The notes beneath the pieces were generated by a model, which saw nothing but the letters and a program-made list of their open reading frames with translations, did no database searches and was not told the origin of the DNA. The position numbers and the translations under genes were made by a program. From assembly GCA_017467535.1 (NCBI GenBank), contig JAFUST010000100.1, forward strand, positions 1-57,152: 57,152 nt of DNA. Reading direction: 5' to 3'. The stretch is from Prevotella sp. (GTDB taxonomy: Bacteria; Bacteroidota; Bacteroidia; Bacteroidales; Bacteroidaceae). Within the stretch, counting starts at the first letter, position 1. Every line of letters starts with the position of its first letter. Shown here piece by piece: positions 3,134-55,275 of the stretch.

Positions 3134-3220
3134 ACCAAAACAAGTTGTTTTGGTCGGTTAGGGATGGGACTTTCGGGTCGTAAGTCACGGTACTATGAAA
3201 CCAAAACAAGTTGTTTTGGT
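3134..3220. repeat. Two identical 21-nt palindromes, 66 bp apart
   Basis: The 680-bp gap between the EamA gene and glutamine synthetase holds two identical 21-nt palindromes at 3134-3154 and 3200-3220. Each has 10-nt arms ACCAAAACAA/TTGTTTTGGT around a single central base. The inner 15 nt read AAAAC-AAGTT-GTTTT, the same 5-5-5 geometry as the arrays at 33.5, 37.4 and 55.0 kb. The spacing of exactly 66 bp is three of their 22-bp periods. The two intermediate phases are not palindromic. Nothing else convincing is seen in 2946-3490; an 87-codon open frame over the promoter looks like chance. Confidence 0.8.
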
Positions 3221-3492
3221 AGCAGTGTAGGCAGTGCAACTTCGGCAAAAAGGTACACTATACTTAACGCGCTGGTACTTAGACGATTAGAAAGGATAGT
3301 ACAACTTTGACAGATATTGCATACTTTTGCTGGACGAGCATAACCTGCAATTCGTTGGAGTTGCTTCAAGCCCGTTTAATTAACACTTTGAGGCAGGGGA
3401 AATCCCCCAAAGTCCTCGTTTCCGCCCATAAAGATAAGCATGGTCTTGACATTTTTTTATTCACCAGACGTAATAATCTCAGAATTTTTATT

Positions 3493-3500
3493 TATCTTTG
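3493..3500 (+). promoter_or_regulatory. -7 promoter element for glutamine synthetase
   Basis: TATCTTTG matches TAnnTTTG and predicts a leader of about 55 nt before the ATG at 3563. A similar TACTTTTG lies near 3323. No clear -33 TTTG is visible. Confidence 0.6.
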
Positions 3501-3562
3501 CAGGCAAAGTTTCCAATCAAGTCAGACCGCACTAAGAGAAAAGTTAACCAAATACCTATATT

Positions 3563-5113
3563 ATGACTAACAATCAGTACATCCTGAACGCCAACCCCAT
3601 TGTGGCGTTCCTACAGAAACCTTCGGCTGAGTTTACGAAGGAAGACATCATCGACTACATGGTGAAGAATGACATCCGTATGGTGAACTTCATGTATCCT
3701 GGCGGCGACGGACGGCTGAAGACGCTGAACTTCGTGGTCAACGACCTGGCCTATCTCGACACCATCCTCACTTGTGGCGAGCGTGTCGACGGCTCCAGCC
3801 TCTTCTCATTCATTCAGGCTGGTTCGAGCGACCTCTATGTGCTGCCCCGCTACCGCACGGCCTTTGTCGACCCCTTTGCCGAGATTCCCACGCTGTCGTT
3901 GCTCTGCTCGTTCTTCGACAAGGACGGCCGACCCTTGGAGTCGTCGCCCGAGCACACGCTGCACAAGGCTGCCGAGGCCTTCCGCAAGGTCACAGGTATG
4001 GAGTTCCAGGCTATGGGCGAACTGGAGTACTACGTCATCAGCGACGACGAGAGAATACAGGACGACGGCTCGGTGGCCGAGGTGAGTGCCTATCCCGCCC
4101 AGGATCAGCGCGGCTACCACGAGTCGGCCCCTTATGCAAAGGGCGGCGACTTCCGCACCCACTGCATACAGTATATCGCCCAGACGGGCGGACAGATAAA
4201 GTACGGTCACTCCGAGGTGGGCAACTTCTTCCTCGACGGCAAGAACTATGAGCAGAACGAGATTGAGTTCCTGCCCGTGCCTGTGGAGCAGGCCGCCGAC
4301 CAGTTGATGGTGGCCAAGTGGATCATCCGCAACTTGGGCTATCAGTTGGGCTACGATGTCACCTTCGCCCCCAAAATCACAACCGGTAAGGCCGGCTCGG
4401 GGCTGCATATCCACATGCGTATGGTAAAGGACGGGCGCAACCAGATGCTCAGCGGCGGTGCCCTTTCGGAGAGTGCACGCAAGATGATTGCGGGCATGAT
4501 GGATCTGGCGCCTGCCATCACCGCCTTCGGCAACAAGAATCCCATGAGTTACTTCCGCCTGGTGCCCCATCAGGAGGCACCTACCAACGTCTGCTGGGGC
4601 GACCGCAACCGCTCCGTGCTGGTGCGAGTGCCGCTGGGGTGGTCGGCCGATGTCAACATGGCGGCCTTGGCCAATCCTCACGACACGACGCTCACCGCCC
4701 AGCCTTCGCCGCTCACCAGCGAGAAACAGACCGTAGAGATGCGCTCGCCCGACGGCAGTGCCGACCTCTACCAGTTGTTGGCCGGCCTCTGTGTGGCCTG
4801 TCGTCACGGTTTTGAGATGGACAATGCTTTGGAACTGTCCGAGCGCACCTATGTCAACGTGAATATCCATGCTGCCGAGAACGCCGACCGTCTGGCCACC
4901 TTGGCTCAGTTGCCCGACTCGTGCGTGGCCAGTGCCGCCTGTCTTGAGCGTCAGCGTGCGGTGTTTGAGGAGTACGGCGTCTTCGCTCCTGCCATGATTG
5001 ACGGCATCATCGCTCAACTGCGCGCCTTTGCCGACACCACCTTGCGCACCGATATCGAGGGTAAGCCCGACGAGTTGCAGAATCTCGTCAACCGCTTCTT
5101 CCACTGTGGCTAA
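3563..5113 (+). CDS. glnA: Glutamine synthetase, type I-like
   Basis: A 516-residue glutamine synthetase, which makes glutamine from glutamate, ammonia and ATP in the cytoplasm. An N-terminal beta-grasp domain (about 30-125) is followed by the catalytic barrel. Metal and substrate motifs visible are GELEYY near 152, GSGLHIHMRM near 278 and NRSVLVRVP near 350. The length is near GSI (about 450-500) and far below the roughly 730-residue GSIII that many Bacteroides also carry. The enzyme is therefore a GSI-type or GSI-like paralogue. Its long 5-prime region contains the two large palindromes, so regulation through them is conceivable but unproven. The product could instead be a gamma-glutamyl ligase of the same fold; the well-kept motifs favour a real synthetase. 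Confidence 0.88.
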   Translation: MTNNQYILNANPIVAFLQKPSAEFTKEDIIDYMVKNDIRMVNFMYPGGDGRLKTLNFVVNDLAYLDTILTCGERVDGSSLFSFIQAGSSDLYVLPRYRTAFVDPFAEIPTLSLLCSFFDKDGRPLESSPEHTLHKAAEAFRKVTGMEFQAMGELEYYVISDDERIQDDGSVAEVSAYPAQDQRGYHESAPYAKGGDFRTHCIQYIAQTGGQIKYGHSEVGNFFLDGKNYEQNEIEFLPVPVEQAADQLMVAKWIIRNLGYQLGYDVTFAPKITTGKAGSGLHIHMRMVKDGRNQMLSGGALSESARKMIAGMMDLAPAITAFGNKNPMSYFRLVPHQEAPTNVCWGDRNRSVLVRVPLGWSADVNMAALANPHDTTLTAQPSPLTSEKQTVEMRSPDGSADLYQLLAGLCVACRHGFEMDNALELSERTYVNVNIHAAENADRLATLAQLPDSCVASAACLERQRAVFEEYGVFAPAMIDGIIAQLRAFADTTLRTDIEGKPDELQNLVNRFFHCG

Positions 5114-5121
5114 TTCTTTAT

Positions 5122-5190
5122 ATGGACTATCTGCTCGGCTGGCCGGCAGGACGGCTGGCAGGCCTCTTTCTTAACAGGGACAAGCGTTGA
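5122..5190 (+). pseudogene. Possible relic of a BASS-family transporter
   Basis: A 22-codon frame, MDYLLGWPAGRLAGLFLNRDKR, begins nine bases after the glutamine synthetase stop. Its first half resembles YLLGWTAGRLAG of the BASS protein encoded at 977-1957, and its end resembles the AGLFLRADR tail of the same protein. This looks like a copy with the roughly 60 residues between two LAG motifs lost. The similarity is short, so a chance match or a genuine micro-peptide is possible. Confidence 0.35.
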
Positions 5191-5237
5191 TAAATTAAAA
5201 TATTGTTTCACGAAAAGTTATTATTAGAAATGAATAA

Positions 5238-5432
5238 ATTCTAATTACCACGCAGTTGCAACTGTTTGACAATCAGCAGTCGAAAGGGTGGGTCAGATAC
5301 TTTGTAGAAGACAGTTCTACCGATCAGTGGATCATGACGTGCAAATGCGCAAGCATTGATGAAAGCCAGACATTTACTGCTCGTTTCACGCTGGACATCA
5401 ATACGGGAGAATACTATATAAATAAGGAATAG
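5238..5432 (+). pseudogene. Orphan C-terminal gene fragment without a start
   Basis: An open frame of 64 codons after a stop at 5235 has no ATG near its beginning but reads like real protein: QLFDNQQSKGWVRYFVEDSS and later FTARFTLDINTGEYYINKE. The alternating polar and hydrophobic pattern suggests a small exported beta-rich domain. It is probably the 3-prime remnant of a deleted gene, since it lies beside another relic in the same 337-bp gap. The family is not recognised. Confidence 0.4.
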
Positions 5433-5450
5433 ACGGACTTTTGAGTTTTT

Positions 5451-6674
5451 TCATTCCTTCAGTTTCTTCTTCAGCAGTTTGTTGATGGCCTGCTCAAGCG
5501 ATTCCGTGGGCTCTATGATGTTGTAGTCTTCCCAGAAGTCAGGGTCTGTGAAATAGTCCACTCGGTCGTAGAAGGCATCGCGCGAGTCGAAGGAACTGCG
5601 CCCGGAGATGGGCAGGATGTCGTCCTGCTGCTTGTCTGTGACCACCATCTCGCAGCAGGCTGTGAAGGAGGTAGCAAACAGACGTCGCCTCCAGTCGCAG
5701 TTGAAGCGGAACGTGTTGCATATATAACTGATGCGCGTCACCCCGTCCTCATAACGGTAGTTTATCAGGCAACTTAGTTCCTTGGGCTTGAAGCGCACGC
5801 CTGCGGGCTTCTTGATCAGCATCAGGCGCGTGGCCTTCTCCTGGTCACTCATGTCCAGCGTCAGTTCTGCACGGGTGAAGGCCAGCGTCTCGCAGTCGAT
5901 GTACAGTTTGCCGAAGTACAGGGCGTAGGGCATTGCCATCCTGGGTGCTATGCTGACCACATACTGCGTGCGGTTGTCGATGACTTCGGGTATTTCCATC
6001 TTCAGGTCGTAGCAAGCCAGTTCCTCGGCGTTGAGCAGGAAGTCGGTGTTTTTCGCGATGTCCAGTTGGATGGGCTGCACGGGCCCGCCCATCACCTTCA
6101 CGCTCAACGTGTCGCTTTTCTTCGGGCTCAGCAGGCGCCGTCCCTTGCGGATGGCCACGCGGTCCCTGTGCGTGTTGCGGTTGTAGGCCGTCTTATACAT
6201 ATCCACTACCCCCTCGGCCACATAGATGAAGTGTTTTTGCTTCATGGCCGTCTCGCGATAGAAGCAGTTGTACAGTTCTGGTTGCCGGCTGTAGTTCTCG
6301 GGTATCTTCTTGATGGCGGTGTTCACCAGTTCGCGCGGATCTTCGCCGAACACCACCACCTCCTGCAGTCGGATGCTTGCTGGCTTGAGTCGTATGCGCA
6401 GCGGTTCTTCCTGTGGGGCAGATATTTTCAGTTGGTAGGACTGGTAGCCGAGGTGCGACACCATGATCTGCACGGGCAGTTCATCCACTTTCAGCGTGAA
6501 GAAGCCGTCGTCGTTGGTGATGACCGACTTGGTACCCCCCATGACGGTCACAGAAGCCTGAACGATACGATCACCCGATTTCTCGTCGATGACTGTTCCG
6601 CTCACCACCGCCTTTTGTGCCCATGCAAGAGTGGCCCAGGCGGCCAGGAAAAGGAATAAAGTGCTTCTTCTCAT
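5451..6674 (-). CDS. Exported CarboxypepD_reg-like domain protein
   Basis: A 407-residue protein with a clear signal peptide (MRRSTLFLFLAAWATLAWAQ). A CarboxypepD_reg-like beta-sandwich follows at about 22-105, with the hallmark VSGTVIDEKSG...GFFTL and VSHLGYQSY pattern. The remaining 300 residues form a domain common behind such modules in Bacteroidetes outer-membrane or periplasmic proteins, of unknown function. The short sandwich is the one found at the N-terminus of SusC/TonB receptors, but no barrel follows here. An upstream ATG at 6689 adds five residues before the signal peptide and is less likely. The gene stands alone, convergent with the relic region and divergent from dusB. Confidence 0.8.
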   Translation of the reverse strand: MRRSTLFLFLAAWATLAWAQKAVVSGTVIDEKSGDRIVQASVTVMGGTKSVITNDDGFFTLKVDELPVQIMVSHLGYQSYQLKISAPQEEPLRIRLKPASIRLQEVVVFGEDPRELVNTAIKKIPENYSRQPELYNCFYRETAMKQKHFIYVAEGVVDMYKTAYNRNTHRDRVAIRKGRRLLSPKKSDTLSVKVMGGPVQPIQLDIAKNTDFLLNAEELACYDLKMEIPEVIDNRTQYVVSIAPRMAMPYALYFGKLYIDCETLAFTRAELTLDMSDQEKATRLMLIKKPAGVRFKPKELSCLINYRYEDGVTRISYICNTFRFNCDWRRRLFATSFTACCEMVVTDKQQDDILPISGRSSFDSRDAFYDRVDYFTDPDFWEDYNIIEPTESLEQAINKLLKKKLKE

Positions 6675-6820
6675 ACTATTCTGCTGCAAACTTACATATA
6701 ATTTTTGAATTATGCAACTGCAGAGTTAAAAAAATGAGGTTTGCTGCATTGCAATTCAATAAATCCAGACAATACGTAAAAAAGATGAGTCAGGAGGAAT
6801 CATAATCGGGAATTTCTTTG

Positions 6821-6828
6821 TATCTTTG
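6821..6828 (+). promoter_or_regulatory. -7 promoter element for dusB
   Basis: TATCTTTG ends nine bases before the dusB ATG. Transcription should then start only a few bases before the start codon, giving a nearly leaderless mRNA. Confidence 0.65.
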
Positions 6829-6837
6829 TAGCCAGAA

Positions 6838-10166: not shown

Positions 10167-10231
10167 GTGGATTTTCGCGTCTCTCCACCTCGTTGACGCA
10201 TTTTTCGCCCTCACCTCTTTTATATTAGTCG

Positions 10232-10239: not shown

Positions 10240-10272
10240 CCGGCGGAAATCCTACTTAAAACAACTGCTTAT

Positions 10273-18145: not shown

Positions 18146-18165
18146 AACGACGACACACATAGTTT

Positions 18166-18190
18166 AATGTTCAATCTTCAATGTTCAATG
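18166..18190. repeat. TTCAATG/TTCAATC simple repeat providing the ompH start codon
   Basis: Three TTCAAT words in a row lie directly before ompH, and the last ATG of the repeat is the preferred ompH start codon. The same words form the inverted pair at 27499-27637, so this is an interspersed repeat rather than local chance. Confidence 0.65.
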
Positions 18191-18736
18191 AATAAGATCT
18201 TAGCAATCCTTTTAGCCCTCTTCACCCTCGCGGCCTCCGCGCAGACCGAAGAGCCCGCGGCCGCCGGCCAATTCTCAATTCCCAATTCTCGCCCCCTCCG
18301 CATCGGCTATCTCAGTTACGACTCCGCACTGGTCCGCATGGCCGACTATGCCGCCGTGCAGCAGCAGATGGCCGCCCTGCGCTCCGCCTACGAGGCCGAG
18401 ATGCAGCGCGTGGAGGACGAGTTCAACCAGAAGTACGAGGCCTTCCTGGAGGGTCAGAAAGACTTCCCCCGCACCATCCTGCTCAAGCGCCAGACCGAAC
18501 TGCAGACGCTGCTGCAGCGCAACGTAGACTTCCGCCGTCAGGCCCAGACCGAACTGCAGCAGGCCGAGCGCCAGGCCATGCAGCCCCTGCACCAGCGCCT
18601 GACCGAGGCCATAGCCCGCGTGGCCGCCCATCAGGGCCTGGCCGTGGTGCTCAACACCGACTCCCGAGCCTGCCCCTTCGTCGACCCCGCGCTGAGCGTC
18701 GACGTCAGCCAGGCCGTCAACGATCTGCTCCGCTGA
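18188..18736 (+). CDS. ompH: OmpH/Skp-family periplasmic chaperone
   Basis: A 182-residue protein: signal peptide MNKILAILLALFTLAASAQ, then an OmpH/Skp domain from about 40, with IGYLSYDSAL and a long charged coiled-coil arm (about 60-130). It ends with the usual GLAVVLNTDSRACPFVDPALSVDVSQ block. Skp-like chaperones hold unfolded outer-membrane proteins in the periplasm. The start was taken at MNKILA (18188); an upstream ATG at 18167 falls inside repeat DNA. Residues 28-35 (QFSIPNSR) are encoded by a CAATTCTC repeat inserted between signal peptide and mature domain. The gene overlaps murI by one base. Confidence 0.88.
   Translation: MNKILAILLALFTLAASAQTEEPAAAGQFSIPNSRPLRIGYLSYDSALVRMADYAAVQQQMAALRSAYEAEMQRVEDEFNQKYEAFLEGQKDFPRTILLKRQTELQTLLQRNVDFRRQAQTELQQAERQAMQPLHQRLTEAIARVAAHQGLAVVLNTDSRACPFVDPALSVDVSQAVNDLLR
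18269..18290. repeat. CAATTCTC/CAATTCCC repeat in frame inside ompH
   Basis: Three tandem CAATTC-words within 22 bases, translated as part of the linker behind the OmpH signal peptide. The repeat is AT-rich in an otherwise GC-rich gene. Confidence 0.55.
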
Positions 18737-19584: not shown

Positions 19585-19590
19585 CGGCGT

Positions 19591-19632
19591 CTATTGTTTA
19601 TTGGCTAATGTTTATTGTTTATTGTTTATTGT
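19591..19632. repeat. TGTTTATTG tandem repeat at the end of the TPR gene
   Basis: Five near-copies of TGTTTATTG between convergent murI and TPR genes. On the minus strand the first copy reads AATAAACAATAA and supplies the last codons and the stop of the TPR protein (…KDNKQ stop). Confidence 0.65.
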
Positions 19633-21589
19633 CCTTCAGCAGTTGCTCCGCCGTCTCCGCGCCCTGTTGGGCCACCCGCGTGGCGGCGTGGTCTTCGCCA
19701 TACTTTTCACGGAATACGGCCAGTGCCTGCCGGTAGCAGTTGAGCGCCGCCTGGTAGTCCTGCTTCAGCAGATAGGCATAGCCCATGTTGCAGCGCACCT
19801 GCGCTACGTCCGGATGCGGCCCGTCGTATGTCTCTCCATATATGGCCAGAGCCTTCTGCAGGAACTCCAGTGCCCTGTCTGGCAACCCCATCTTGCAGTT
19901 GATGGTCCCCAGGTTGTTGCACGAGACGGCAATCTCAGGATGCGCCTTGCCGTAGATGTTGATGCGTGAGATGAGTGCCTTCACGTAGCATTCCATCGCC
20001 TCGTCCAGACGGCCCAGATTGTCCAGGGCAGCCCCGATGCTGTTGTACGACGTGGCCACCAGCGGATGGTTCTCGCCGTAGACGCCCGCCCTGATGCTCA
20101 GCGCCCGTCGGTAGAACTGCAGGGCCAGCGAGTCGTTGCCCTGGGCGGCGTAGACGGCCCCCATGTTGTGATAGGCCTGTGCCGTGGCCGGGTGAGCCTC
20201 GCCGCACGTCTTCTCGCAGATGCTCAGTGCCTGCTGGTAGCACCTCATGGCCTGCTCCAGGTCGCCCGTCCGCTTATAGGACAGCCCCATGTTGTTGTAG
20301 ACCATTGCCACGTCGGCGTGCTCCGTGCCGATAGTTCCCCGCCATATCTCCAGTGCCTCGCCGTAGCACCTCAGTGCCTCGGCGTAGCGGCCCAGACACA
20401 GGTGCACGTAGCCCAGATTGTTGTATGATAGTGCCACGTCCTCGTGCTCCCTGCCATATACCGTCTGCCAGATGGCGAGAGCCTGCTGGTGATTCTCCTC
20501 GGCCTCGTTGTAGCGGCCCAGGCTGGACAGCGTCACCCCCAGGTTGTTGTAGGCCGTTGCCGCGTCGGCGCGCTCCTCGCCCTGTTGCGTCAGGGCCAGC
20601 CTCAGGCTGCGTCGGTCGTAGAGCAGCGCCTTCTCGTAGTCTGCCACATAGCGGCCCAGAAACTTACCCGCCGTGAGTTGCCATTCCACACGTGTGGTAT
20701 CCAGTTCGGCGCGTGTTTCAATGTAGTGGCGCGCCTTCTCGTTGTCCAGCCGCGCCAGTGCTATCGTGAAGAGTTGGTACAAGTGCTCTGCATCCCTCTC
20801 CTGCTGCTTCAGCACCTTGGCCATGTCCGCCTCCGCCTGCCGGATCATGTCGTTGGCAGAGATGACGCTCCGGTCTATTCTTGCAAGCGCCTCACGGTTG
20901 CGCTCAAGCACGCCCACGGGGTCAAACTCCGCGCTGAGCAGTGAGTCTGCACGCTCCAGGTCGCCGTTCTCAATGCAGATGTTGACTTCGCGCTCTCGAT
21001 CGCTCAGGCTGTCGTAGTCTATGTGAGCATAGTGCTCGGCTAGTCCGTCGATGAGCGACTGGTATTTCTCAAACCGCTCCTGCAGCCCCCTCAACGCCTC
21101 ACTGTACTGCTCCGCCGTCATCATTTGGTCTGCCTTTTGCTGCTCCAGCAGGGCGAGCCTGGCCTTGTAGTTCTTTTCAGCCGTCCTGTATGCATTGTCC
21201 TCTATACGCTGCTTGTCGGCCTGCAACTGGGCCGTCTGCACCATAGTAATGATCAGGGGCACTCGGTCAGAGAAGGCATGCTGCCGTCCGATGATGCTTT
21301 TCTCGTTCAGTTCGTAACCGCTCTTCTGCACCTGCTGCAGGGCGTAAGGCTCGCCGTTTCTCTTGCCGGGCATACTCATGAGGATAGTGCCGTCGCCGCG
21401 ACTCACAGTGGCATTGTGCTCCCCCTTCACCCTGACAGTCACGCCGCTCAGGGCCTCTCCCTTTCGGTCGGGGCGCCCCAGCGTCTTCACCAGACCCTGC
21501 TGCGTCTGCGCATCCACAGACACCGGCAGCAGTCCTGCCAACAGCAGCATTCCAACGATCATGATTTGCACTCTACGAGGTGTCATCAT
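19619..21589 (-). CDS. Exported kinesin-light-chain-type TPR protein (cluster paralogue 1)
   Basis: A 656-residue protein with a signal peptide ending near VDAQ, then the motif QTQQGLVKTLGR shared with the two plus-strand neighbours. An Ig-like CarboxypepD_reg-type module follows at about 30-110, a charged coiled-coil segment at about 115-290, and a run of about eight 42-residue TPRs of kinesin light chain type at about 325-640 (YNNLGVTLSSLGRYNEAEEN and relatives). The coiled-coil contains two further cluster signatures: DYDSL with an NGDLERADSLL block, and RAELDTTRVEW. It should act as a periplasmic or surface scaffold. It is divergent from the 21728 gene, with both promoters in the 138-bp gap. 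Partner and ligand are unknown; the neighbouring membrane TIR protein is the obvious candidate partner. Confidence 0.8.
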   Translation of the reverse strand: MMTPRRVQIMIVGMLLLAGLLPVSVDAQTQQGLVKTLGRPDRKGEALSGVTVRVKGEHNATVSRGDGTILMSMPGKRNGEPYALQQVQKSGYELNEKSIIGRQHAFSDRVPLIITMVQTAQLQADKQRIEDNAYRTAEKNYKARLALLEQQKADQMMTAEQYSEALRGLQERFEKYQSLIDGLAEHYAHIDYDSLSDREREVNICIENGDLERADSLLSAEFDPVGVLERNREALARIDRSVISANDMIRQAEADMAKVLKQQERDAEHLYQLFTIALARLDNEKARHYIETRAELDTTRVEWQLTAGKFLGRYVADYEKALLYDRRSLRLALTQQGEERADAATAYNNLGVTLSSLGRYNEAEENHQQALAIWQTVYGREHEDVALSYNNLGYVHLCLGRYAEALRCYGEALEIWRGTIGTEHADVAMVYNNMGLSYKRTGDLEQAMRCYQQALSICEKTCGEAHPATAQAYHNMGAVYAAQGNDSLALQFYRRALSIRAGVYGENHPLVATSYNSIGAALDNLGRLDEAMECYVKALISRINIYGKAHPEIAVSCNNLGTINCKMGLPDRALEFLQKALAIYGETYDGPHPDVAQVRCNMGYAYLLKQDYQAALNCYRQALAVFREKYGEDHAATRVAQQGAETAEQLLKDNKQ

Positions 21590-26367: not shown

Positions 26368-27498
26368 ATGGAACAGGAATACAAATACTTTGCGTTTATC
26401 AGTTACAACTCTAAGGACACGGAGTGGGGCAGGCGGGTGCAGCGGAAACTGGAGCACTACCGCATGCCGGCCACGCTGTGCAGTGAGCACGGATGGGAAC
26501 GAACGCCCATCAAGCCGGTGTTCTTTGCACCCACCGACATACAGCCCGGCGGGCTGAACGAGGAACTGCAGGAGCGGCTGAGGGCGGCGCGCCACCTGAT
26601 AGTCATCTGTTCGCCCAACTCGGCACGGTCGGAGTGGGTAGGCAGGGAGATTGCGTTCTTCCACCAGTTGGGGCGCACCAGGCAGATCCACTTCTTCATC
26701 GTCAGCGGACAGCCGCACAGCGGCAACCCGGAGACGGAATGCTTCAACGGGGTGGTGGAGCAGTTGGGCCTGCCCGAGATACTCGGTGCCAACATCCACG
26801 AGCAGGTCTACCGCTGGCCGTGGCTGAACAGGGAGCGGGCCTACGTGCAACTGGTGTCGAAACTGCTGGGTGTGGAGTTCGATGCCATCTGGCAGCGCCA
26901 CAAGCGGCGGCTCGTGCGCAAGGTGGTCTGCTGGGCCGTGGGCATCGTGGCCGTGATGGCCGCCCTGCTGGGTGTATGGCTGAAGAACCAGCCTGTCGAC
27001 GTGTCGGTGCACGTGCGGGAGACTTCTGTCCACAGCAGCGCGTTGCCGCCACTGAGGGATGCCGTGGTCACGCTGGTGCTGAGCAACGAGACGAAGACGG
27101 ACACCATCCGTTCGATAGACGGCGGCGTGGTGCTGAGGAACATTCCGCACCGCTACGTGGATGAAGAGGTGCACGTGCGGGTGACTTGCCGCGACTTCCT
27201 GCCTGTAGACACGCTGCTGCTGCTGACGAAGGAGGTCTGCATCGGCGTGCAGCGCGATGCGGCGGTCTATGGCGACGTGCGCTTCCGCCTCTGGAACCCC
27301 GACCGCGAAGAGGCCGTCGCCGGTGCTGCGGTGACGGTGGAGGGCCATGAGGCCGTGAGCGACGAAAGCGGACTGGTGCGCCTGCGGATTCCCCTGGAGC
27401 AGCAGCGCACGGTGTACCACGTGGCGGCTGCCATCCCGCTTGTGACGGACTCGGTCTACATGCCCTGCGGCGAGGATGACGTGCTGCTCTGTTACTAA
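26368..27498 (+). CDS. Membrane-anchored TIR-domain protein with extracytoplasmic Ig-like modules
   Basis: A 376-residue protein. An N-terminal TIR domain (about 5-170) opens with KYFAFISYNSKD. It carries SPNSARSEWVGRE, with Glu94 in the position of the catalytic glutamate of NAD-cleaving TIR domains. A single membrane helix (about 186-205) follows a basic stretch (HKRRLVRK), which predicts the TIR domain inside the cell. Residues 210-376 outside form two small beta-sandwich modules, the second (AVAGAAVTVEGHEAVSDESG) like the Ig-like module of the upstream TPR proteins. Bacterial TIR domains are often NADases in immunity or signalling. Here the single-pass layout and the operon with exported TPR proteins suggest an outside-to-inside sensor. 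Enzyme activity is not proven by the sequence. Confidence 0.88.
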   Translation: MEQEYKYFAFISYNSKDTEWGRRVQRKLEHYRMPATLCSEHGWERTPIKPVFFAPTDIQPGGLNEELQERLRAARHLIVICSPNSARSEWVGREIAFFHQLGRTRQIHFFIVSGQPHSGNPETECFNGVVEQLGLPEILGANIHEQVYRWPWLNRERAYVQLVSKLLGVEFDAIWQRHKRRLVRKVVCWAVGIVAVMAALLGVWLKNQPVDVSVHVRETSVHSSALPPLRDAVVTLVLSNETKTDTIRSIDGGVVLRNIPHRYVDEEVHVRVTCRDFLPVDTLLLLTKEVCIGVQRDAAVYGDVRFRLWNPDREEAVAGAAVTVEGHEAVSDESGLVRLRIPLEQQRTVYHVAAAIPLVTDSVYMPCGEDDVLLCY

Positions 27499-27637
27499 CA
27501 TTGAAGATTGAACATTGAACATTGAAGATTCTTGCTCTGGCAAGCGTCCCTGCGGGCCGAGCGGAACATTTTTCGGAAAGTTAAATTTGTATAATCTCGA
27601 CTGATAATGTTCAATGTTCAATGTTCAATCTTCAATG
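27499..27637. repeat. Inverted pair of 32-nt TTCAATG-type repeats
   Basis: The arms 27499-27530 and 27606-27637 are inverted copies built from CATTGAA-words, matching at about 29 of 32 bases. They enclose about 75 bp with a TAAATTTG box at 27582. The pair begins one base after the TIR stop and ends just before the DUF3737 promoter. It can form a large hairpin that might end the TIR operon transcript, but there is no U-tract. Confidence 0.75.
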
Positions 27638-33361: not shown

Positions 33362-33453
33362 AGATTTTTTTCGCGAAAAATCTGTCACTTCTATCACTTT
33401 CCTTTGTTTATCGGGGTTTAAGTGGTGACAGATGTGGTGATAGATGTGATAGA
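33362..33453. promoter_or_regulatory. Hairpin followed by inverted TCTATCAC-type words
   Basis: A hairpin at 33362-33383 (AGATTTTT…AAAAATCT) is followed by two copies of TCTGTCAC/TCTATCAC (33381, 33390). After 28 bp come three inverted copies GTGACAGA/GTGATAGA (33425, 33437, 33446). This looks like a multi-site operator or terminator-operator. A similar hairpin and word cluster precedes the palindrome array at 55.0 kb. Confidence 0.55.
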
Positions 33454-33542
33454 TTTAACGAATATTTAGAAAAAAGAATTGCCGATTTCGGGTCATTTTC
33501 ATCGCTTTTTGAAAAGATTGCCCTGAAATCGATGGATAGTCG

Positions 33543-33667
33543 TTCCAGATATAGGAACGAGTTGTTCCATTCGATGGAATGGTTTGTTCCAGGGGGTGGA
33601 ACATTTTGTTCCAAGGCTTGGAACATTTTATTCCAGGGCCTGGAACACTTCCTTCCAAGGGGTGGAA
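33543..33667. repeat. Six-unit palindrome array, strict 22-bp period (TTCCA-N5-TGGAA)
   Basis: Six 15-nt units start at 33543, 33565, 33587, 33609, 33631 and 33653. Each has arms TTCCA and TGGAA (the first ends in AGGAA) around a 5-nt centre, and every spacer is exactly 7 nt. The centres differ (GATAT, TTCGA, GGGGG, AGGCT, GGGCC, AGGGG). The array lies in the 445-bp gap between the GH28 and AGCS genes. No gene is seen in this gap. Confidence 0.95.
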
Positions 33668-33713
33668 CAACATCTTTTGGACGTATTTGTTTGGAGATAT
33701 GAAGAAAAACACG

Positions 33714-33767: not shown

Positions 33768-35132
33768 ATGGAGGCTATCAGTGATTTCTTTGCCCTTCTC
33801 AGTTCATTCCTGTGGGGCTGGCCGATGATTGTGCTGCTGCTGGGCACGCACGTGTTTCTCACCTTCCGACTGCGCATACCGCAGCGCAAGTTGCTGACGG
33901 GCATACGGTTGTCGGTGCAGAAAGACCAGGAGGCAGCGGGCGACGTGAGCCAGTTTGGCGCGTTGGCCACGGCTCTGGCGGCCACCATCGGCACGGGCAA
34001 CATCGTCGGTGTGGCCACGGCTGTGGCCCTGGGCGGACCTGGGGCTGTGCTGTGGTGCTGGCTGACGGGCATTTTCGGCATGTCGACCAAGTATGCCGAG
34101 GGTCTGCTGGCCGTGAAATACCGTGTGAAGGGTGAGAACGGCCGTATGTATGGCGGACCGATGTATGCCCTGGAGCGCGGGCTCCACATGAAGTGGCTGG
34201 CGCTGATTTTCGCCGCTTTCACCGCGTTGGCCTCGTTTGGCATCGGCTGTACGGTGCAGGCCAACTCCATTGCGCTGCTGGCTAACGAGACCTTCGGCAT
34301 ACCCACATGGCTCGTCGGCCTGCTCATCTGCCTGCTGGCGGCCTGCGTCATCTTGGGTGGCGTGAAGGTCATTGCCAAGGTCTGTACGGTGCTGGTGCCC
34401 TTCATGGCTATTCTCTATGTGCTGGGCTGCATCGTCATCCTCTGCATGAACGGCTCGTATGTCTGGCCCGCCGTTACGCTGATTGTCGACAGCGCCTTCA
34501 ACCCCTCGGCTGCCGGCGGCGGCTTCGTGGGGGCGACGGTGATGATGGCCGCCCGCTACGGCATAGCCCGCGGCCTCTTTTCGAACGAGAGCGGCATGGG
34601 CAGCGCACCCATCGTGGCTGCTGCCGCCCAGACGCGCAACCCCGTGCGCCAGGCGCTGGTCAGCAGCACGGGCACCTTCTGGGACACCGTGGTCATCTGT
34701 GCCCTGACAGGACTGGTGCTGGTCAGCAGCATCCTGGCCTATCCCGACATCACCTATGCCGACGGCGCCGCGCTGACCAAGGTGGCCTTCTCGAAGATAC
34801 CCTACGTGGGGGCGCCGCTGCTCACCTTCGGCATCCTGACCTTTGCCTTCAGCACCATCCTGGGCTGGAGTTACTACGGCGAGAGTGCCGTCAACTACAT
34901 TGAAGGTCGCCATATCAACCGATTCTATCGCATCCTCTTCATCGTGGCCCTCTTCTTCGGCAGCATCATCACGCTGGACATCATCTGGAACATAGCCGAC
35001 TGCATGAACGCCCTGATGGCCATCCCCAACCTGGTGGCCCTGCTCCTGCTGAGCGGCGTGGCGGCCCGCGAGACCAAGAAATATCTGTGGGCGGGTCGGC
35101 TGGACGAAGAGATGGAGGAAGAACCAAATTGA
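33768..35132 (+). CDS. Alanine/glycine:cation symporter (AGCS) family protein
   Basis: A 454-residue membrane protein with about eleven helices. It shows the AGCS block ATALAATIGTGNIVGVATAVALGGPGAVLW near residue 65 and MSTKYAEGLLAVKYR after it. FSNESGMGSAPIVAAAAQT lies near 275. These proteins import alanine or glycine with Na+ or H+ through the inner membrane. All regions of the family are present and the length is normal. The gene has its own -7 box just behind the six-unit palindrome array. The following methyltransferase starts 12 bp after its stop, so they may share a transcript. Confidence 0.92.
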   Translation: MEAISDFFALLSSFLWGWPMIVLLLGTHVFLTFRLRIPQRKLLTGIRLSVQKDQEAAGDVSQFGALATALAATIGTGNIVGVATAVALGGPGAVLWCWLTGIFGMSTKYAEGLLAVKYRVKGENGRMYGGPMYALERGLHMKWLALIFAAFTALASFGIGCTVQANSIALLANETFGIPTWLVGLLICLLAACVILGGVKVIAKVCTVLVPFMAILYVLGCIVILCMNGSYVWPAVTLIVDSAFNPSAAGGGFVGATVMMAARYGIARGLFSNESGMGSAPIVAAAAQTRNPVRQALVSSTGTFWDTVVICALTGLVLVSSILAYPDITYADGAALTKVAFSKIPYVGAPLLTFGILTFAFSTILGWSYYGESAVNYIEGRHINRFYRILFIVALFFGSIITLDIIWNIADCMNALMAIPNLVALLLLSGVAARETKKYLWAGRLDEEMEEEPN

Positions 35133-37348: not shown

Positions 37349-37365
37349 CCAGAGTCAGGACGAAG

Positions 37366-37468
37366 CAAACCTCAAGTTTGGACGGAGCAAACCTCAAGTT
37401 TGGACGGAGCAAACTCCGGGTTTGGACGAAGCAAACTCTGGGTTTGGACGAAGCAAACCAGAACTGTG
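37366..37468. repeat. Palindrome array, strict 22-bp period (CAAAC-N5-GTTTG)
   Basis: Units at 37366, 37388, 37410 and 37432 have arms CAAAC and GTTTG around centres CTCAA, CTCAA, TCCGG and TCTGG. A fifth unit at 37454 has a decayed right arm. The 7-nt spacers are GACGGAG or GACGAAG, and one more spacer precedes the first unit. The array lies between convergent LRR and ompA genes, just before a strong terminator. Confidence 0.95.
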
Positions 37469-50598: not shown

Positions 50599-50617
50599 AG
50601 TACACATATATGTGGTG

Positions 50618-50625
50618 CAAATTTA
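50618..50625 (-). promoter_or_regulatory. -7 promoter element for the hybrid regulator
   Basis: TAAATTTG on the minus strand, about 19 bp upstream of the chosen start. A small palindrome CACATATATGTG lies between them (50602-50613). Confidence 0.55.
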
Positions 50626-50800
50626 CGAAAAACAAATGAATACACCATCTTCGCCGATGGGAAAATCATTCAGTAGTCTTGTCTTGGCTTCGTGCCGATT
50701 TGATTGGTTAAGGTGTTGATAATCAGGTTTTTGTTCTCGTTGTAGTGTGCGCTCAGTCCTAACCGATGCTCCGAAAAAGTTTCCTCAGTCCAAGCAAAAT

Positions 50801-50824
50801 GTAAAAGGCGGCGCAACACCGCCG
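50801..50824 (-). terminator. Rho-independent terminator of ruvB
   Basis: On the minus strand GGCGG and CCGCC form a short GC stem, followed by TTTTAC. It lies eight bases after the ruvB stop. Confidence 0.7.
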
Positions 50825-50831
50825 TTCTATT

Positions 50832-51875
50832 TTATTCGTCAAAGAGACTGGGCTGCATGGCTGTCCCCGTGAAGGGGCTGCGGCCAAAGTGGCGATAGGC
50901 CAACTCGGTCACCATGCGACCTCGGGGGGTACGTTTGATGAAACCCTCCATGATGAGGAAGGGCTCATAGACCTCCTCCACCGTGCCGGCATCCTCGCCA
51001 ACGGCAGTAGCGATGGTGGTGATACCCACCGGGCCACCGCGGAATTTGTCGATGATAGTCAGCAGTATCTTGTTGTCAATCTCGTCCAGGCCATACTTGT
51101 CTATGTTCAGGGCAGTCAGGGCGATTCGCGAAATCTTGGTGTCTATGCCGCCGTTTCCCTTCACCTGAGCAAAGTCACGCACCCGGCGCAGCAGCGAGTT
51201 GGCTATACGGGGCGTGCCTCGTGACCGTCCGGCAATCTCCATTGCCGCATCCTCGGTGATGGGTACGCCCAGCAGGTGGGCAGAGCGTTCAATGATTCTG
51301 GCCAGCGTCTCCGGGGCGTAGTATTCCAGATGCATATTGATGCCGAAGCGGGCCCTGAGCGGAGCCGTCAGCAGGCCGCTGCGGGTGGTGGCACCCACCA
51401 GCGTGAAGGGGTTCAGGTCTATCTGGATGGTACGGGCCGACGGGCCTTTGTCTATCATGATGTCTATGCGATAGTCCTCCATCGCCGAATAGAGATATTC
51501 CTCTACCACAGGCGACAGGCGGTGTATCTCGTCGATGAAGAGCACGTCGCGCGGTTCCAGCGACGTCAGGATGCCGGCCAAGTCGCCGGGTTTGTCGAGC
51601 ACGGGGCCGCTGGTGATCTTGAAGCCCACGCCCAGTTCGTTGGCAATGATGTTCGAGAGTGTGGTCTTGCCCAGTCCTGGAGGACCGTGCAACAGCGTGT
51701 GGTCGAGCGGCTCACCGCGGTACTTGGCAGCCTCAACGAACACCTGCAGGTTCTCCACCACCTTCTGTTGTCCGCTGAAGTCGCTGAAGTTCAGGGGTCG
51801 CAAGGCATTCTCGAAATCCTTCTCCCCTCCGCCGGCATAGCGCTCCTGGCGAATGTCAAAATCCTCGTCCATCAT
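50832..51875 (-). CDS. ruvB: Holliday junction branch-migration ATPase RuvB
   Basis: A 347-residue AAA+ motor that drives branch migration with RuvA. Walker A is [15 protein letters not shown], Walker B is [13 protein letters not shown], and sensor 1 is [20 protein letters not shown] with its arginine finger. The C-terminal winged helix, [18 protein letters not shown], follows. Length and all motifs are standard. Two ATGs are adjacent (51875 and 51872). No ruvA or ruvC is nearby, as is usual in Bacteroidales. It has its own promoter and terminator. Confidence 0.97.
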
Positions 51876-51898
51876 CTATAGGCAATCATTCTTGGCTG

Positions 51899-51906
51899 CA
51901 AAGATA
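51899..51906 (-). promoter_or_regulatory. -7 promoter element for ruvB
   Basis: TATCTTTG on the minus strand, 23 bp upstream of the ruvB start. Confidence 0.65.
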
Positions 51907-51997
51907 CAAATAAATTCCCAATAAGCGCACTTTCATCTGTTAAAGAGTGAAAAATGCCCATTGCTCCTTTCCGGCATAGATAGAGTAGGGCATGACA

Positions 51998-52039
51998 GAA
52001 CGGTCCTCCTGATCCACTAAAGGATGAGGAGAACCGTTC
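51998..52039 (-). terminator. Long hairpin after the BspA gene
   Basis: An 18-bp stem with 16 pairs (GAACGG…CCGTTC outside, ATCC…GGAT inside) and a 6-nt loop. It starts about 20 bases after the BspA stop. No U-tract follows on the minus strand, so it may protect the 3-prime end rather than terminate. Confidence 0.6.
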
Positions 52040-52059
52040 CGCAATAATTTCAGGCGAAA

Positions 52060-53496
52060 TTACTTCACCACGACCTTGATGCTCTTGCTTCCGACCTTCA
52101 CGATGGCGACGGAGCCTGCCTGCAGCGAAGTCCTGACCGTTGCCGTTCCGTTTTGGCTGACAGCCGAGCCCTCCTGCATGCCATTGATGCCATAGACGCT
52201 GACCTGCGTACCGTCATCTATGCCTTGCACCTTCAGCACGCCACCCTCGCTCTGTACCAGAATAGCCCGGGCCGAGATGCTGGCCATGCCGTTGGCTATG
52301 CCCTCAGTCTTAGGCTCTACGTCCACCCAGCACAGTGTCGCGTAGACCGTCTCAGAGTCCTCATATTCAGCCTTTGCGGCATAGACGCTGATGCTGTAGG
52401 TCACACCGAGTTGCACTTCATTTGCAGTATAGGTGCCCATGTCCGCATCTGTGATGCTTGACACGCAAGTGGCCCCCTCAGTCTCACAGTTGAATGTCAG
52501 TTTCCCGTTTTTATAACTGATGGTAGGTTTCTCGCACTTCTTCGCCTCAGGCGTCACAGGGTCGCTGCCACCCGTTCCATCCTCTATGAACAAGAAATCC
52601 TTCCATCCTTCTGTTGCTTTATATTTCTCTTTCGTACCTACAGGCACATATAGGGTGCCGTTCATGAAAGTATTCTGACTAAATGTCATCATGTTATTGT
52701 ACGTTTTTCCTCTTATTTTAAACGGATTCTCTATCAACGACACAACCGTAGCAAGATTGTCGCACTCATAGAACGCAGAACTCCCGATACTCGTCACGCT
52801 ATTTCCAATAGTCACCGAACTCAGGCCGCTACATCTCCAGAACGCCTCACTCCCGATACTCGTCACGCTGTTAGGGATGGTCACAGAACTCAGGCCGCTA
52901 CAGCCAGAGAACGCATTATACCCGATACTCGTCACGCTGTTAGGAATCACTAAGTTCTTAATTTCCGTGTCTTCATCGCTATATAAGTGATGAGCGTAAT
53001 ACAGAGGGTTAGCATAATAAGCATAATAACCGTTAAACTTTATATTGCACCACGCAGCAATATCTTTGACGATTACTTTTTGAAGTTTGTCACAATTATA
53101 GAACGCTTTTTCTCCGATACTCGTCACGCTGTTTCCAATTGTCACCGAGGTCAGGCCGCTACAGTCATAGAACGCATGATCCCCGATACTCGTCACACTA
53201 TTTCCAATTGTCACCGAGGTCAGGCCGCTACAGTTATAGAATGCTCTTTTTCCGATACCCGTCACCTTTCGTGTTCTATTCATATAAGTAACTTCATCAG
53301 GAATAACAAAATTTCCACTATAACTCTTATAATCAGTATTCTTATAAGTAATTTCCAGTTCCAAGCCATCACTGATGTAATTGTAATAAATCGTTACACC
53401 ATCCGCATTCTCAACTGCGATGTCATAGGCTAAAGCCTTGGCTCCAACCATACTCATGAGTACGGTGAGCAGAACAATCAAATTAAGTTTCTTCAT
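52060..53496 (-). CDS. Secreted BspA-type leucine-rich repeat protein
   Basis: A 478-residue surface protein with a cleaved signal peptide (ending near KALA) and LRR_5 repeats at about 70-290. Several repeats are almost identical at DNA level, with SGLTSVTIGNSVTSIG or SGLSSVTIPNSVTSIG. The YVPVGTKEKYKATEGWKDF cap follows, then a middle Ig-like module (about 315-385). A C-terminal domain (VYGINGMQEG…SLQAGSVAIVKVGSKS) resembles a type A type IX secretion sorting domain. BspA proteins bind fibronectin, other bacteria or mucosal ligands. The near-identical repeat DNA suggests recent expansion or gene conversion. Confidence 0.88.
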   Translation of the reverse strand: MKKLNLIVLLTVLMSMVGAKALAYDIAVENADGVTIYYNYISDGLELEITYKNTDYKSYSGNFVIPDEVTYMNRTRKVTGIGKRAFYNCSGLTSVTIGNSVTSIGDHAFYDCSGLTSVTIGNSVTSIGEKAFYNCDKLQKVIVKDIAAWCNIKFNGYYAYYANPLYYAHHLYSDEDTEIKNLVIPNSVTSIGYNAFSGCSGLSSVTIPNSVTSIGSEAFWRCSGLSSVTIGNSVTSIGSSAFYECDNLATVVSLIENPFKIRGKTYNNMMTFSQNTFMNGTLYVPVGTKEKYKATEGWKDFLFIEDGTGGSDPVTPEAKKCEKPTISYKNGKLTFNCETEGATCVSSITDADMGTYTANEVQLGVTYSISVYAAKAEYEDSETVYATLCWVDVEPKTEGIANGMASISARAILVQSEGGVLKVQGIDDGTQVSVYGINGMQEGSAVSQNGTATVRTSLQAGSVAIVKVGSKSIKVVVK

Positions 53497-53509
53497 AAAA
53501 TATTATTAA

Positions 53510-53962
53510 TTATTTCTTGCAATTCTTAAGGGCTTTAATTATCTCCATGAGTTTAGAAAAGGACGAAAACCTAGCATACATAGTTAGATGAGGCTTTTCC
53601 CCTTTTTTTTGTTTTTTTGAAGATACTTTATTAACATCTTCTAAAACGATTTCGTCATTGCATTTAAATATGCGATTGTGTGCAAACGCATTACGAACAT
53701 GAGAGAGTAGTTGTCTTATATTAGTATCAGAATTAAAATAAAACACATTAGTCTCTGTTTCATTTTCCTGCTCCAGAGTATTGAGTGTATCTTTTATATC
53801 GAATCCTAGATCCCTTTTTGCTTGTTTATATTCCTTTTGTCTCTTGTCATAGGGAATTGCAAAGAAGGTGTCTTGCTCACAATGTTGCAGAATTTCGTTA
53901 TAAAAGTCTGCGATCTCTGGTGTTTTCAATGCCTTTGTAGATGTTCTTTCTTTAGCATTCAT
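53510..53962 (-). CDS. Putative HEPN-domain protein, candidate toxin
   Basis: A 150-residue, mostly helical, AT-rich gene product. The stretch LLSHVRNAFAHNRIF contains RNxxxH (R-N-A-F-A-H), the active-site signature of HEPN ribonucleases, preceded by a suitable helix and followed by a variable basic region. I do not recognise a named family. It overlaps the small upstream gene by four bases (ATGA), the layout of toxin-antitoxin pairs. BspA starts 13 bp after its stop. Base composition differs clearly from the GC-rich genes to the left, suggesting acquisition. The function as an RNase toxin is inference. Confidence 0.6.
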   Translation of the reverse strand: MNAKERTSTKALKTPEIADFYNEILQHCEQDTFFAIPYDKRQKEYKQAKRDLGFDIKDTLNTLEQENETETNVFYFNSDTNIRQLLSHVRNAFAHNRIFKCNDEIVLEDVNKVSSKKQKKGEKPHLTMYARFSSFSKLMEIIKALKNCKK

Positions 53963-54195
53963 TTTGTTTTGGTTTTAGTGAGTTTACTATATGTTATTCT
54001 GTACTTTTCTGCATCTAAGAGATGTGATTTTAGGAATTCGTTCAATTCTTCTGAACTAGGTTTTTCTGAACAAGATATGTAAATGGGGTCATAATTACTA
54101 TCTGGGTAGGATATTTGCATCCAGTTTTTCCCTTGTGCAACAACTTCATTAAGTTGTTCAACTTGGATGATTTTTAATTCTTTTTTCATATACAA
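53959..54195 (-). CDS. Small acidic/basic mixed protein, candidate antitoxin
   Basis: A 78-residue protein of unknown family. It begins MYMKKELKIIQVEQLNEVVA, then a short beta-rich part with DSNYDPIYISCSEKP, then a helix SSEELNEFLKSHLL, ending in a Lys/Thr-rich tail (SKLTKTKTK). Its stop overlaps the ATG of the HEPN-like gene. The size and position fit an antitoxin made before its toxin. No DNA-binding or MNT nucleotidyltransferase motif is visible, so it is not a standard HEPN-MNT partner. A second ATG (54189) is also possible as start. Confidence 0.55.
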   Translation of the reverse strand: MYMKKELKIIQVEQLNEVVAQGKNWMQISYPDSNYDPIYISCSEKPSSEELNEFLKSHLLDAEKYRITYSKLTKTKTK

Positions 54196-54605
54196 GATTT
54201 TACGCCTACCCGCTCTCCCTGCCTCAGCCGGTTAATATGAATGTTGGTATAAGGAAACAAAAAGGGCGCGGGAGTAAACTTTCTGTCGCTTACCCCACTG
54301 TATAGGCCTTCGCATTGCCCTTCTATCGAGATAAGCAACTCAGCCAGCCCACGCCTTTGCGTATTATAATGGATATGCTGGAAGCCAATGGTGGCTGCCA
54401 GACATAGGAATATAATACACCCAGCATGGACGCTTCGTTGCGTATATCCTCTGATAGAATTCAAGTTGCGAAGTTGATACAGTAGAAGATAACGTCAAGA
54501 AAACGTCCTTCGAGGCCGGCCTTACAAACGGCTTTGTCGGCCTCTGTTCCATCGATGTCGTGACCCGCTCACCCTTGCGGGCTACCTGAGTCAGCGGCAA
54601 AGTTA
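54186..54605 (-). other. Promoter and structured leader or degenerate element upstream of the HEPN pair
   Basis: A -7 box TAACTTTG at 54598-54605 (minus strand) is followed by hairpins, CCCGC…GCGGG and a GAGGCC…GGCCTC stem with an inner ACAAA/TTTGT pair at about 54510-54545. It contains two overlapping frames in different registers (62 codons at 54364-54552 starting MEQRPTKPFVRP, and 92 codons at 54186-54464). Neither resembles a normal protein. I recall similar peptides as common spurious annotations in Prevotella, which would point to an interspersed element or RNA. It could serve as a 400-nt leader for the HEPN pair. Confidence 0.4.
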
Positions 54606-54838
54606 CAAAAGATTTTTGAAACAACAAAGAAAATGGGCAAATAACTCGGTATTTAACAATATCATCTTCGAGCACAAAGGATAATATTCTATCGAAAAGG
54701 CCCAAACCTCACAAATCCGCCAATGGAGGCTCCAACCCCATCGCATGGAGCGTGATCTCCTACACGCATTTTTTAATAAAACATGGGGATGCCCACCAAA
54801 GGCTTGCAGATCACTGGTTGTTGTTGCTGTTTTTCAAA

Positions 54839-55275
54839 AAGTTTTTTCTTGAGAAAAATTTCATAAAAGTAACTACATAACTACATTTTTACAGTTAAAG
54901 TACTTATAATCAGATATTTAATCGATGTATGTCACATACATAAAACTACATACGACCTACATAAACTGACGTTAAAGCCCCTGTTTCACCTATTACGGCA
55001 CCCGCTCTTTGATATTGTTTCCACATTGTTCCAATGAGCGAAACACTTTGTTTCTCCCATTGAAACACTTTGTTTCGCCTATAGAAACAAAGTGTTTCAG
55101 CAAAAGAAACATTTTGGAACACATTGGTTTTCAATAGATTAGCGGTATTTTTACCATAAAAAGCCACTATTTTTGCCCAAATAATGTAGGTCAATTTCAA
55201 ATTATGTAGGTTAACTACATAGTGCATCTATTTGTGTATCAGTATATTAACACCTAAAATGTAGTTATGTATGTC
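54839..55275. repeat. Hairpin plus dispersed ACTACATA-type words flanking a palindrome array
   Basis: A hairpin near 54839-54861 (AAGTTTTTT…GAAAAATTT) precedes two CTACAT words at 54873. Further TATGTAG/CTACATA words follow on both strands at about 54926-54960, 55184, 55203-55220 and 55258-55275. They lie on both sides of the array at 55040. No gene is convincing in 54606-55730; a 77-codon frame at 55267 contains a TAACTTTG box and looks non-coding. Confidence 0.6.
55040..55120. repeat. Four-unit palindrome array, strict 22-bp period (GAAAC-N5-GTTTC)
   Basis: Units start at 55040, 55062, 55084 and 55106. Arms are GAAAC and GTTTC, and the fourth unit has a decayed right arm (GGAAC). Centres are ACTTT, ACTTT, AAAGT and ATTTT, so unit 3 is unit 1 inverted. 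The spacers are always 7 nt (TCCCATT, GCCTATA, AGCAAAA). Confidence 0.95.

Follow-up and report, generated by a model that had tools for sequence, protein, structure and literature searches.

Two described arrangements set short sites at a regular pitch: plasmid replication iterons, in which sites of 17-22 bp recur roughly every two turns of the helix, tolerate variation in the linkers and have a cognate Rep initiator, and CRISPR (clustered regularly interspaced short palindromic repeats) arrays, in which a conserved palindromic repeat alternates with a variable spacer of fixed length, each of tens of base pairs. Within the Bacteroidales, BrickBuilt of Porphyromonas gingivalis is a minisatellite of the miniature inverted-repeat transposable element (MITE) kind which has a 23-nt unit without spacers, forms one sequence family and is always intergenic (PMC4596501); the same source refers to an earlier report of 22-nt tandem repeats in strain W83. 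Dispersed short palindromes are also represented by repetitive extragenic palindromes (REP), bacterial interspersed mosaic elements (BIME) and REP doublets forming hairpins (REPIN), which form mosaics and species-specific families, are associated with REP-associated tyrosine transposases (RAYT) and are described with a GTAG or CGTC tag next to the palindrome (PMC3733652, PMC2817692, PMC3116915, PMC3686654). In the present study, we analysed arrays of short palindromic units in contig JAFUST010000100.1 of Prevotella sp. (the window, meaning this whole stretch of 57,152 nt), together with its own genome (G000; 2.39 Mb, 79% complete), a sister genome (G040) and relatives under other G numbers; L numbers denote individual loci or stretches. 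A sequence-only reading of the window had proposed that four loci share one palindrome geometry, a 5-nt arm, a 5-nt centre and a 7-nt spacer, with different letters at each locus, and may form an undescribed class of element.

The invariant of these arrays is the 22-bp pitch, and the 5-5-7 layout is not the rule. All four loci (A to D) were examined by direct reading of the sequence, Tandem Repeats Finder (TRF) and repeat search. The family A array (33543..33669, units at 33543-33667) consists of six TTCCA-N5-TGGAA units at 22-bp pitch, the first with one arm mismatch; the 7-nt gaps differ among the units, and the most frequent inter-unit form is TGGAACA-ttt-TGTTCCA. The family B array (37358..37459, arms at 37366-37458) has CAAAC/GTTTG arms at the same pitch and contains four complete GTTTG-N7-CAAAC 17-mers (at 37376, 37398, 37420 and 37442) with variable 5-bp linkers. 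The family C array (55040..55098) comprises three GAAAC-N5-GTTTC units, again 22 bp apart, of which the third has an inverted centre (AAAGT for ACTTT). Family D is a pair of 21-bp palindromes, copy 1 at 3134..3154 (ACCAAAACAAGTTGTTTTGGT, with one central base) and copy 2 at 3200..3220; the two starts lie 66 bp apart, that is, 3 x 22 bp, and the pair is therefore without a 7-nt spacer, though on the same 22-bp grid. What stood of the proposed common geometry was thus the pitch shared by A, B and C, whereas the exact 5-5-7 rule and its extension to the pair at 3.1 kb did not.

Since the dyads recur every 11 bp, the frame of 5-nt arm, 5-nt centre and 7-nt spacer is one of two equivalent frames. 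In family B it is the 7-nt part that is conserved and the 5-nt part that varies, so the unit is a conserved 17-bp quasi-palindrome followed by a variable 5-bp linker: 61 array units carry 13 distinct 7-nt centres, read on either strand, and four centres account for 45 of the units, while 37 of 53 linkers are distinct (35 of 51 with stricter removal of duplicates). Neighbouring B units stand head-to-tail in 65 of 75 cases, with seven opposite and three ties. Across all units, centre positions 3 and 5 covary above permutation and pairs 1-7 and 2-6 fall below it; no linker pair rises above permutation but for pair 1-5 when distinct linkers alone are taken (p 0.01). Outside the window the detected centres range from 3 to 11 nt.

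Set against the described systems, the arrays resemble BrickBuilt in belonging to the Bacteroidales, in their short tandem unit of nearly equal length, in their dispersed copies and in a unit number that varies between strains at conserved loci; the BrickBuilt leader and tail may also have a counterpart in the blocks that flank the arrays of families A and C. They differ from BrickBuilt in having a pitch of 22 rather than a 23-nt unit, a 17-bp core plus 5-bp variable linker (family B) and several unrelated motifs; moreover, B arrays have no evident long flanking block, and some arrays lie within genes at slots of equal length. From REP, BIME and REPIN they are set apart by the regular 22-bp pitch of 17-bp cores, by the location of some arrays inside genes and by the absence of a consistent RAYT gene. 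Y1 transposase (PF01797), the one transposase family sought, had no match in array-bearing G003 (99% complete), G042 or G043; G000 and G041 had one match each, that of G000 at 24 bits against a cut-off of 23, and G040 had two. Since this transposase is not consistently present, RAYT-driven spread was ruled out.

Iterons are the closest functional analogue, and the spacing of the arrays fits theirs; unlike iterons, the arrays occupy dozens of chromosomal loci, have symmetric cores and change motif between lineages. With CRISPR they share a palindromic repeat and a variable spacer of fixed length, but the dimensions are 17 + 5 bp and the arrays are tiny and number dozens. A Pfam scan of 20 proteins flanking A, C and D loci returned no cas family, the genome as a whole not having been searched for cas. 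Likewise, the window gave no Rfam match at the gathering threshold, and a literature search of limited reach found no described family. The suggestion that no known repeat family covers these arrays held to that extent; an earlier description may exist, for example in the report cited for the 22-nt repeats of W83.

The pitch is kept strictly. Neighbouring units with exact arms, no more than 70 bp apart, in the window and in the loci fetched by DNA search, gave 54 of 54 spacings at multiples of 22 bp for families A, B and C together: 49 at 22 bp, four at 44 and one at 66 (B, 23 at 22 and one at 44; A, 16 at 22, two at 44 and one at 66; C, 10 at 22 and one at 44). A looser unit pattern yielded one 55-bp spacing among 35. 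All five distinct family D pairs, three in G000 and one each in L117 and L152, are 66 bp apart. The structural search that had been suggested, against dinucleotide shuffles, came out in favour of a real excess: scanning for inverted 5-nt arms (at most one mismatch, 22-bp period, at least three units) found three arrays in the window and one in 20 unselected stretches of its own genome (264 kb), vs a mean of 0.0 in five shuffles.

Many genomes of rumen Prevotella contain arrays of the same architecture built from different arms, which bears out the idea of a class defined by architecture and not by letters. Two samples were scanned with the arms left free and low-complexity arrays dropped. Among 80 named loci around the alanine symporter gene, mostly from metagenome-assembled genomes of rumen Prevotella (1.34 Mb), the palindromic scan found 16 arrays at period 22 vs 0 in shuffled sequence (14 after merging); the next periods were 33 (10 arrays), 44 (6), 21 (6 vs 1 shuffled) and 15 (5 vs 0), of which 33 and 44 are harmonics raised because dyads recur every 11 bp. 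Nineteen congener stretches, four of them (G003) chosen around matches, gave six arrays at period 22 vs one shuffled, and 40 congener stretches without those hit-chosen ones gave nine, none of the other periods between 15 and 30 having more than two. When the palindrome criterion was removed altogether, TRF on 143 Prevotella stretches (2.35 Mb; overlapping rows collapsed to the best) counted 64 arrays at period 22 against six at 19, four at 20 and six at 23; the 63 at period 21 and 13 at period 24 both include coding and 7-mer repeats. Other Bacteroidales families held one period-22 array in 567 kb.

The palindromy test kept those TRF rows in which the consensus is exactly as long as the period (56 for period 22); the period count kept all 64. 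The consensus unit was palindromic at p <= 0.02 against letter shuffles in 15 of 56 arrays at period 22, in 7 of 55 at period 21 and in none of the 12 with a period of 19, 20 or 23; since the units of the other 41 period-22 arrays are not palindromic by this measure, the pitch is the more general invariant. Strict palindromic arrays number 3.8 per Mb in the sample of the own genome, 13.2 in congeners, 4.5 in G016 and 0 in G008 (123 kb). The arms vary from array to array, and within some arrays both arms change together. Arrays are also present in the isolate genomes of Xylanibacter brevis ATCC 19188 (L141) and Prevotella sp. ne3005 (L122), which rules out an assembly artefact. As separate observations on this repertoire, G008 has 41 places matching the reversed control CAAAC-N7-GTTTG at 22-bp pitch, which may be one long array and of which none fell in the 123 kb sampled; and L049 carries at 2392-2473 a 23-bp array, TACCTAGGTAAGAGTGGTGCGAA, with the palindrome TACCTAGGTA, a rare neighbour of the 22-bp class.

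The loci of the window had been regarded as independent cases, from which hundreds per genome were projected; neither claim survived. Each locus is a member of a dispersed family of its genome: with the query counted, DNA searches of the own genome returned 11 matches for A, 23 for B (E <= 0.1), 16 for C (E <= 0.1, several being the two strands of one place) and six for the D pair. The pattern GTTTG-N7-CAAAC-N5-GTTTG-N7-CAAAC, with up to three mismatches, occurs at 78 places in the own genome vs 0 for its reversed control, and the family A pattern, with up to two, at 26 places vs 2 for the control (in congener G003, 5 vs 0). At least 42 array loci were listed in the own genome, some with two units only, and at the density of about 27 tandem 22-bp arrays per Mb roughly 65 would be expected for its size.

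Longer elements enclose the arrays of families A and C. The blocks that flank these arrays are shared between copies, and in some copies the block on one side is the inverse of that on the other. The family A block (33365..33470), an AT-rich hairpin with GTGATAGAT-type repeats, is inverted beyond the array in some copies; it occurs at ten places in the own genome including the window, the other nine being 80-97% identical over the matched part. Around the family C array extends an element of about 500 bp (54830..55322, ends approximate), with imperfect overall inverted symmetry and CTACAT-type outer repeats, which is 71-74% identical to L025, L027 and L028 across ~500 bp. Flank similarity between family B pairs is weaker, 65-85%, mostly over ~90-230 bp including the array. 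Two-unit segments common to different arrays amount to 2 of 33 in 19 G000 arrays and 0 of 27 in 17 G040 arrays; the arrays are therefore not simple copies of one another, and copying of whole multi-unit segments between loci was ruled out.

The arrays show no preference for any gene direction. Among 58 period-22 arrays away from stretch ends, six lie in open reading frames (ORFs) and 52 are intergenic; the latter comprise 33 in co-directional, 11 in convergent and eight in divergent gaps, near what the available sequence offers (114, 37 and 48 kb, respectively). With no enrichment in divergent gaps, promoter-linked operator arrays were ruled out. The ORF caller was crude (ATG starts, at least 90 aa); five of ten window/A entries and three of six C entries also fell in ORFs that were judged mostly spurious, and these were excluded from the in-gene arrays. 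Five of the 26 listed family B arrays lie within ORFs, that of L226 being doubtful. Three host genes are well supported: cbiA by Pfam and by orthologues, an outer membrane efflux gene by Pfam (OEP), and the L015 gene, which has no Pfam match, by an orthologue in G043; on our own readings, an alpha-2-macroglobulin-like ORF in L228 and a peptidase-like gene on the plus strand of L031 are further putative hosts.

Spacing and symmetry are kept and the letters are not: these differ between lineages, even at one spot of one gene. Family B arms were found in 0 of 39 relatives (up to two mismatches), and at 99 places in G040, 46 in G043, one in G041 and none in G042. The 66-bp slot in cbiA (CbiA and GATase_3 domains) aligns without gaps across the array in G000, G040, G043 and G042. 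It holds three GTTTG/CAAAC units in G000 and G040, the third being inverted in G040, a degenerate B-like array in G043, and two TTCCC-N5-GGGAA-type units (two arm mismatches) in G042. In G009 there is no clear array and the slot is 3 nt longer, and in G041 there is a larger insertion with 7-mer repeats. Insertion of an array into cbiA was ruled out, since G042 and G043 have other letters in a slot of unchanged length and the slot of G009 exceeds it by 3 nt. The predicted dispersal of TTCCC/GGGAA in G042 held, with seven places at five loci including cbiA; elsewhere the motif has three places in G041, four in G040, each with two mismatches (control 1), and none in G000, G043 or G009.

A second slot, in the L015 gene, differs in all three cores between G000 and G043. 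Among the 80 named loci there were 0 pairs of orthologous slots. Five intergenic arrays could be compared between G000 and G040, whose flanks are mostly 94-98% alike (90% upstream of L012), and they show replacement of linker blocks, a switch of core type, gain or loss of entire 22-bp units, or near identity. One whole 22-bp unit distinguishes the sister species at L016/L262 and at L020/L263, and core types have switched in place at L016/L262 and L012/L260.

With a confidence a little below even, we favour the reading that the arrays are helically phased, iteron-like dyad sites for a putative DNA-binding protein of drifting specificity. Each unit would be a dyad site of about 17 bp, with its neighbours fixed exactly 22 bp away, about two DNA turns, and dimers of the putative protein would sit on nearly one face of the helix, from which they might form a multimer or bridge arrays. 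The protein would read the symmetric core and ignore the linker, and we propose that this is why linker letters drift while linker length stays fixed. Its specificity would differ by lineage, with the arrays at fixed slots re-lettered to follow. The role would likely be exerted at chromosome level (bridging, nucleoid structure or marking) and not in the control of one promoter class, because arrays occur in convergent, divergent and co-directional gaps as well as in some genes. Such a reading explains the fixed pitch with variable linkers, the symmetric cores, the indifference to gene direction and the change of motif at a kept slot, and, of the three roles that had been suggested for the arrays, an in-phase DNA-binding platform seems to fit best. 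Still more tentatively, the arrays may represent an undescribed system of rumen Prevotella, with dozens of slots occupied by 17-bp dyad arrays at strict 22-bp pitch and re-lettered together as the specificity of the protein shifts, a case of co-evolution of site and protein. As only pitch and symmetry are common to its members, the class is invisible as one unit to ordinary homology search. If the arrays are protein sites, they would show motifs turning over quickly in bacteria while the positions stay fixed; if they are selfish, a genus abundant in the gut would have a palindrome system that lacks a consistent RAYT; and, on either reading, some of the sequence between Prevotella genes and a few intragenic stretches become interpretable.

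Several points weigh against phased protein sites. The protein is itself putative, and we infer its existence, its dimer symmetry, its multimerisation and its chromosome-level role alike. A spacing of 22 bp is slightly more than two turns of B-DNA, and the family B loci were fetched with a query itself of 22-bp pitch, which favours that pitch. Moreover, the linkers are not random, the probability that two are equal being 0.023-0.026 vs ~0.002 for uniform 5-mers. Significant palindromy is lacking in most of the period-22 arrays (41 of 56) and present in 7 of 55 at period 21, and the density of strict arrays is uneven (one in 264 kb of the own genome, one in 220 kb of G016, none in 123 kb of G008). 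Nor are the motifs strictly bound to species: D pairs (AAAACAA/TTGTTTT) occur in G000, L117 and L152, and TTCCC/GGGAA in G042, G041 and L168. The slot evidence comes from two genes, cbiA and the L015 gene. Finally, substitutions are commoner in arrays (41 of 418) than in flanks (307 of 5996), with an odds ratio of 2.0 at p 2e-4, a direction opposite to simple purifying selection, and the switches of whole cores between flanks about 94% alike (L016/L262) look faster than point mutation plus selection. This fast switching in place and the raised substitution rate are unexplained by binding alone.

A copying process, by template switching or short-homology conversion, would explain both, and the two processes may act together. 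As the whole explanation it is the main rival, if a rather unlikely one in our judgement: functionless 17-bp hairpin-forming cores would be spread and overwritten by a process linked to replication or recombination, with the 22-bp module as the thing copied and with template switching at quasi-palindromes, cruciform processing or short-homology conversion between arrays as possible routes. The in-place core switches at L016/L262 and L012/L260, the one cbiA unit inverted between G000 and G040 and the odds ratio of 2.0 among array substitutions all speak for it, as do the longer, MITE-like elements with inverted flanks of families A and C. Changes on both sides of the stem in 46 of 122 departures (61 arrays) point the same way, in a count made after low-complexity arrays were dropped and biased by a detector that requires palindromes. 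Nevertheless, what is kept is the length of the linker and mostly not its letters, multi-unit segments are seldom shared between loci, the cbiA slot shows no insertion, and the one transposase family tested, Y1, had no match in array-bearing G003, G042 and G043. Hairpin templating, also among the suggested roles, is kept alive by the unit switches between sister species and weakened by the scarcity of shared multi-unit segments.

Less likely again is that the arrays are ordinary minisatellites that arose through slippage or unequal exchange; helix geometry in replication or recombination would then favour period 22, and palindromy would be incidental in most. The 41 non-palindromic arrays, the gain and loss of units as exactly 22 bp between sister species, the 65 of 75 adjacent B units that stand head-to-tail and linkers more alike than random would all suit such an origin. 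Slippage, however, would copy linkers too, yet those of family B mostly differ within and between arrays; spacings of 21 or 23 bp number 0 of 54; the motifs found in the cbiA slot are unrelated from one genome to another, and each is dispersed through the genome that carries it; and such arrays are nearly absent from other Bacteroidales families.

The weakest reading, a very improbable one, is that the arrays work at the RNA level through stem-loops in transcripts, whether as terminators, as stabilisers or as protein-binding RNAs, and the hairpin trains once suggested find little support: the predicted folding of A, C and D beats shuffles by far (z -6.3 to -9.1), that of B weakly (z -1.6 and -2.0), and the compensated stem departures, biased as said, would agree with it, but both strands fold about equally, the predicted folds of A and B pair units together with no train, G-T and A-C mismatches show no strand polarity in a test of low power (25 vs 24; per-array maxima sum to 41 vs a null of 42.8), arrays occur at every orientation of the neighbouring genes and in places within coding sequence, and the rigid 22-bp pitch is left without a reason.

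As to the surroundings in the window, the family A array is followed by a sodium:alanine symporter gene (Na_Ala_symp by Pfam; 33768..35132, plus strand), and the sister locus L105 holds the orthologue of this array. The family B array is flanked by an LRR_5 gene and an OmpA gene, both with the 3' end towards it. Beyond the family C array lies a tyrosine recombinase gene (Phage_integrase by Pfam; 55731..57089, plus strand), and no integrase was present at the six scanned neighbours of other family C copies. A common neighbour gene was rejected: among the 30 proteins in the Pfam scan (seven from the window, three array host genes and 20 at other A, C and D loci, B neighbours outside the window being left out), the one family shared by two array loci was the beta-barrel family PF13505, with one of its two matches below cut-off.

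The window contains other repeats as well. Two tandem arrays of a 69-bp unit, with 2.5-2.6 copies each, lie at 52770-52947 and 53092-53265 within a minus-strand ORF (52060-53496). Heptamer tandem arrays (GTTCAAT, CAATTCT, TATTGTT, AACATTG, AATGTTC) occupy 18162-18190, 18269-18290, 19589-19633, 27497-27530 and 27606-27637, and period 7 was the most frequent (37 rows) when TRF was run on the own-genome sample plus the window. Some of these heptamer arrays form inverted pairs around TTTGCTACCGC/GCGGTAGCAAA, and it is one such element that sits in the cbiA slot of G041. Next to the array of L012 (1360-1480, compared with L260) there is a long hairpin, GCATTCTATAG...CTATAGAATGC in the sister, whose stem is changed on both sides between the sisters. 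Additionally, in the region of residues 410-466 of L018 and at 4040-4136 of L050 there appears to be a second dispersed repeat, GC-rich (compare the 33-bp CTCCCTCACAGGGAGGGGCCGGGGGAGAG unit of L050) and translated in the linker after the cbiA part, with many weak matches elsewhere in G000 and G040.

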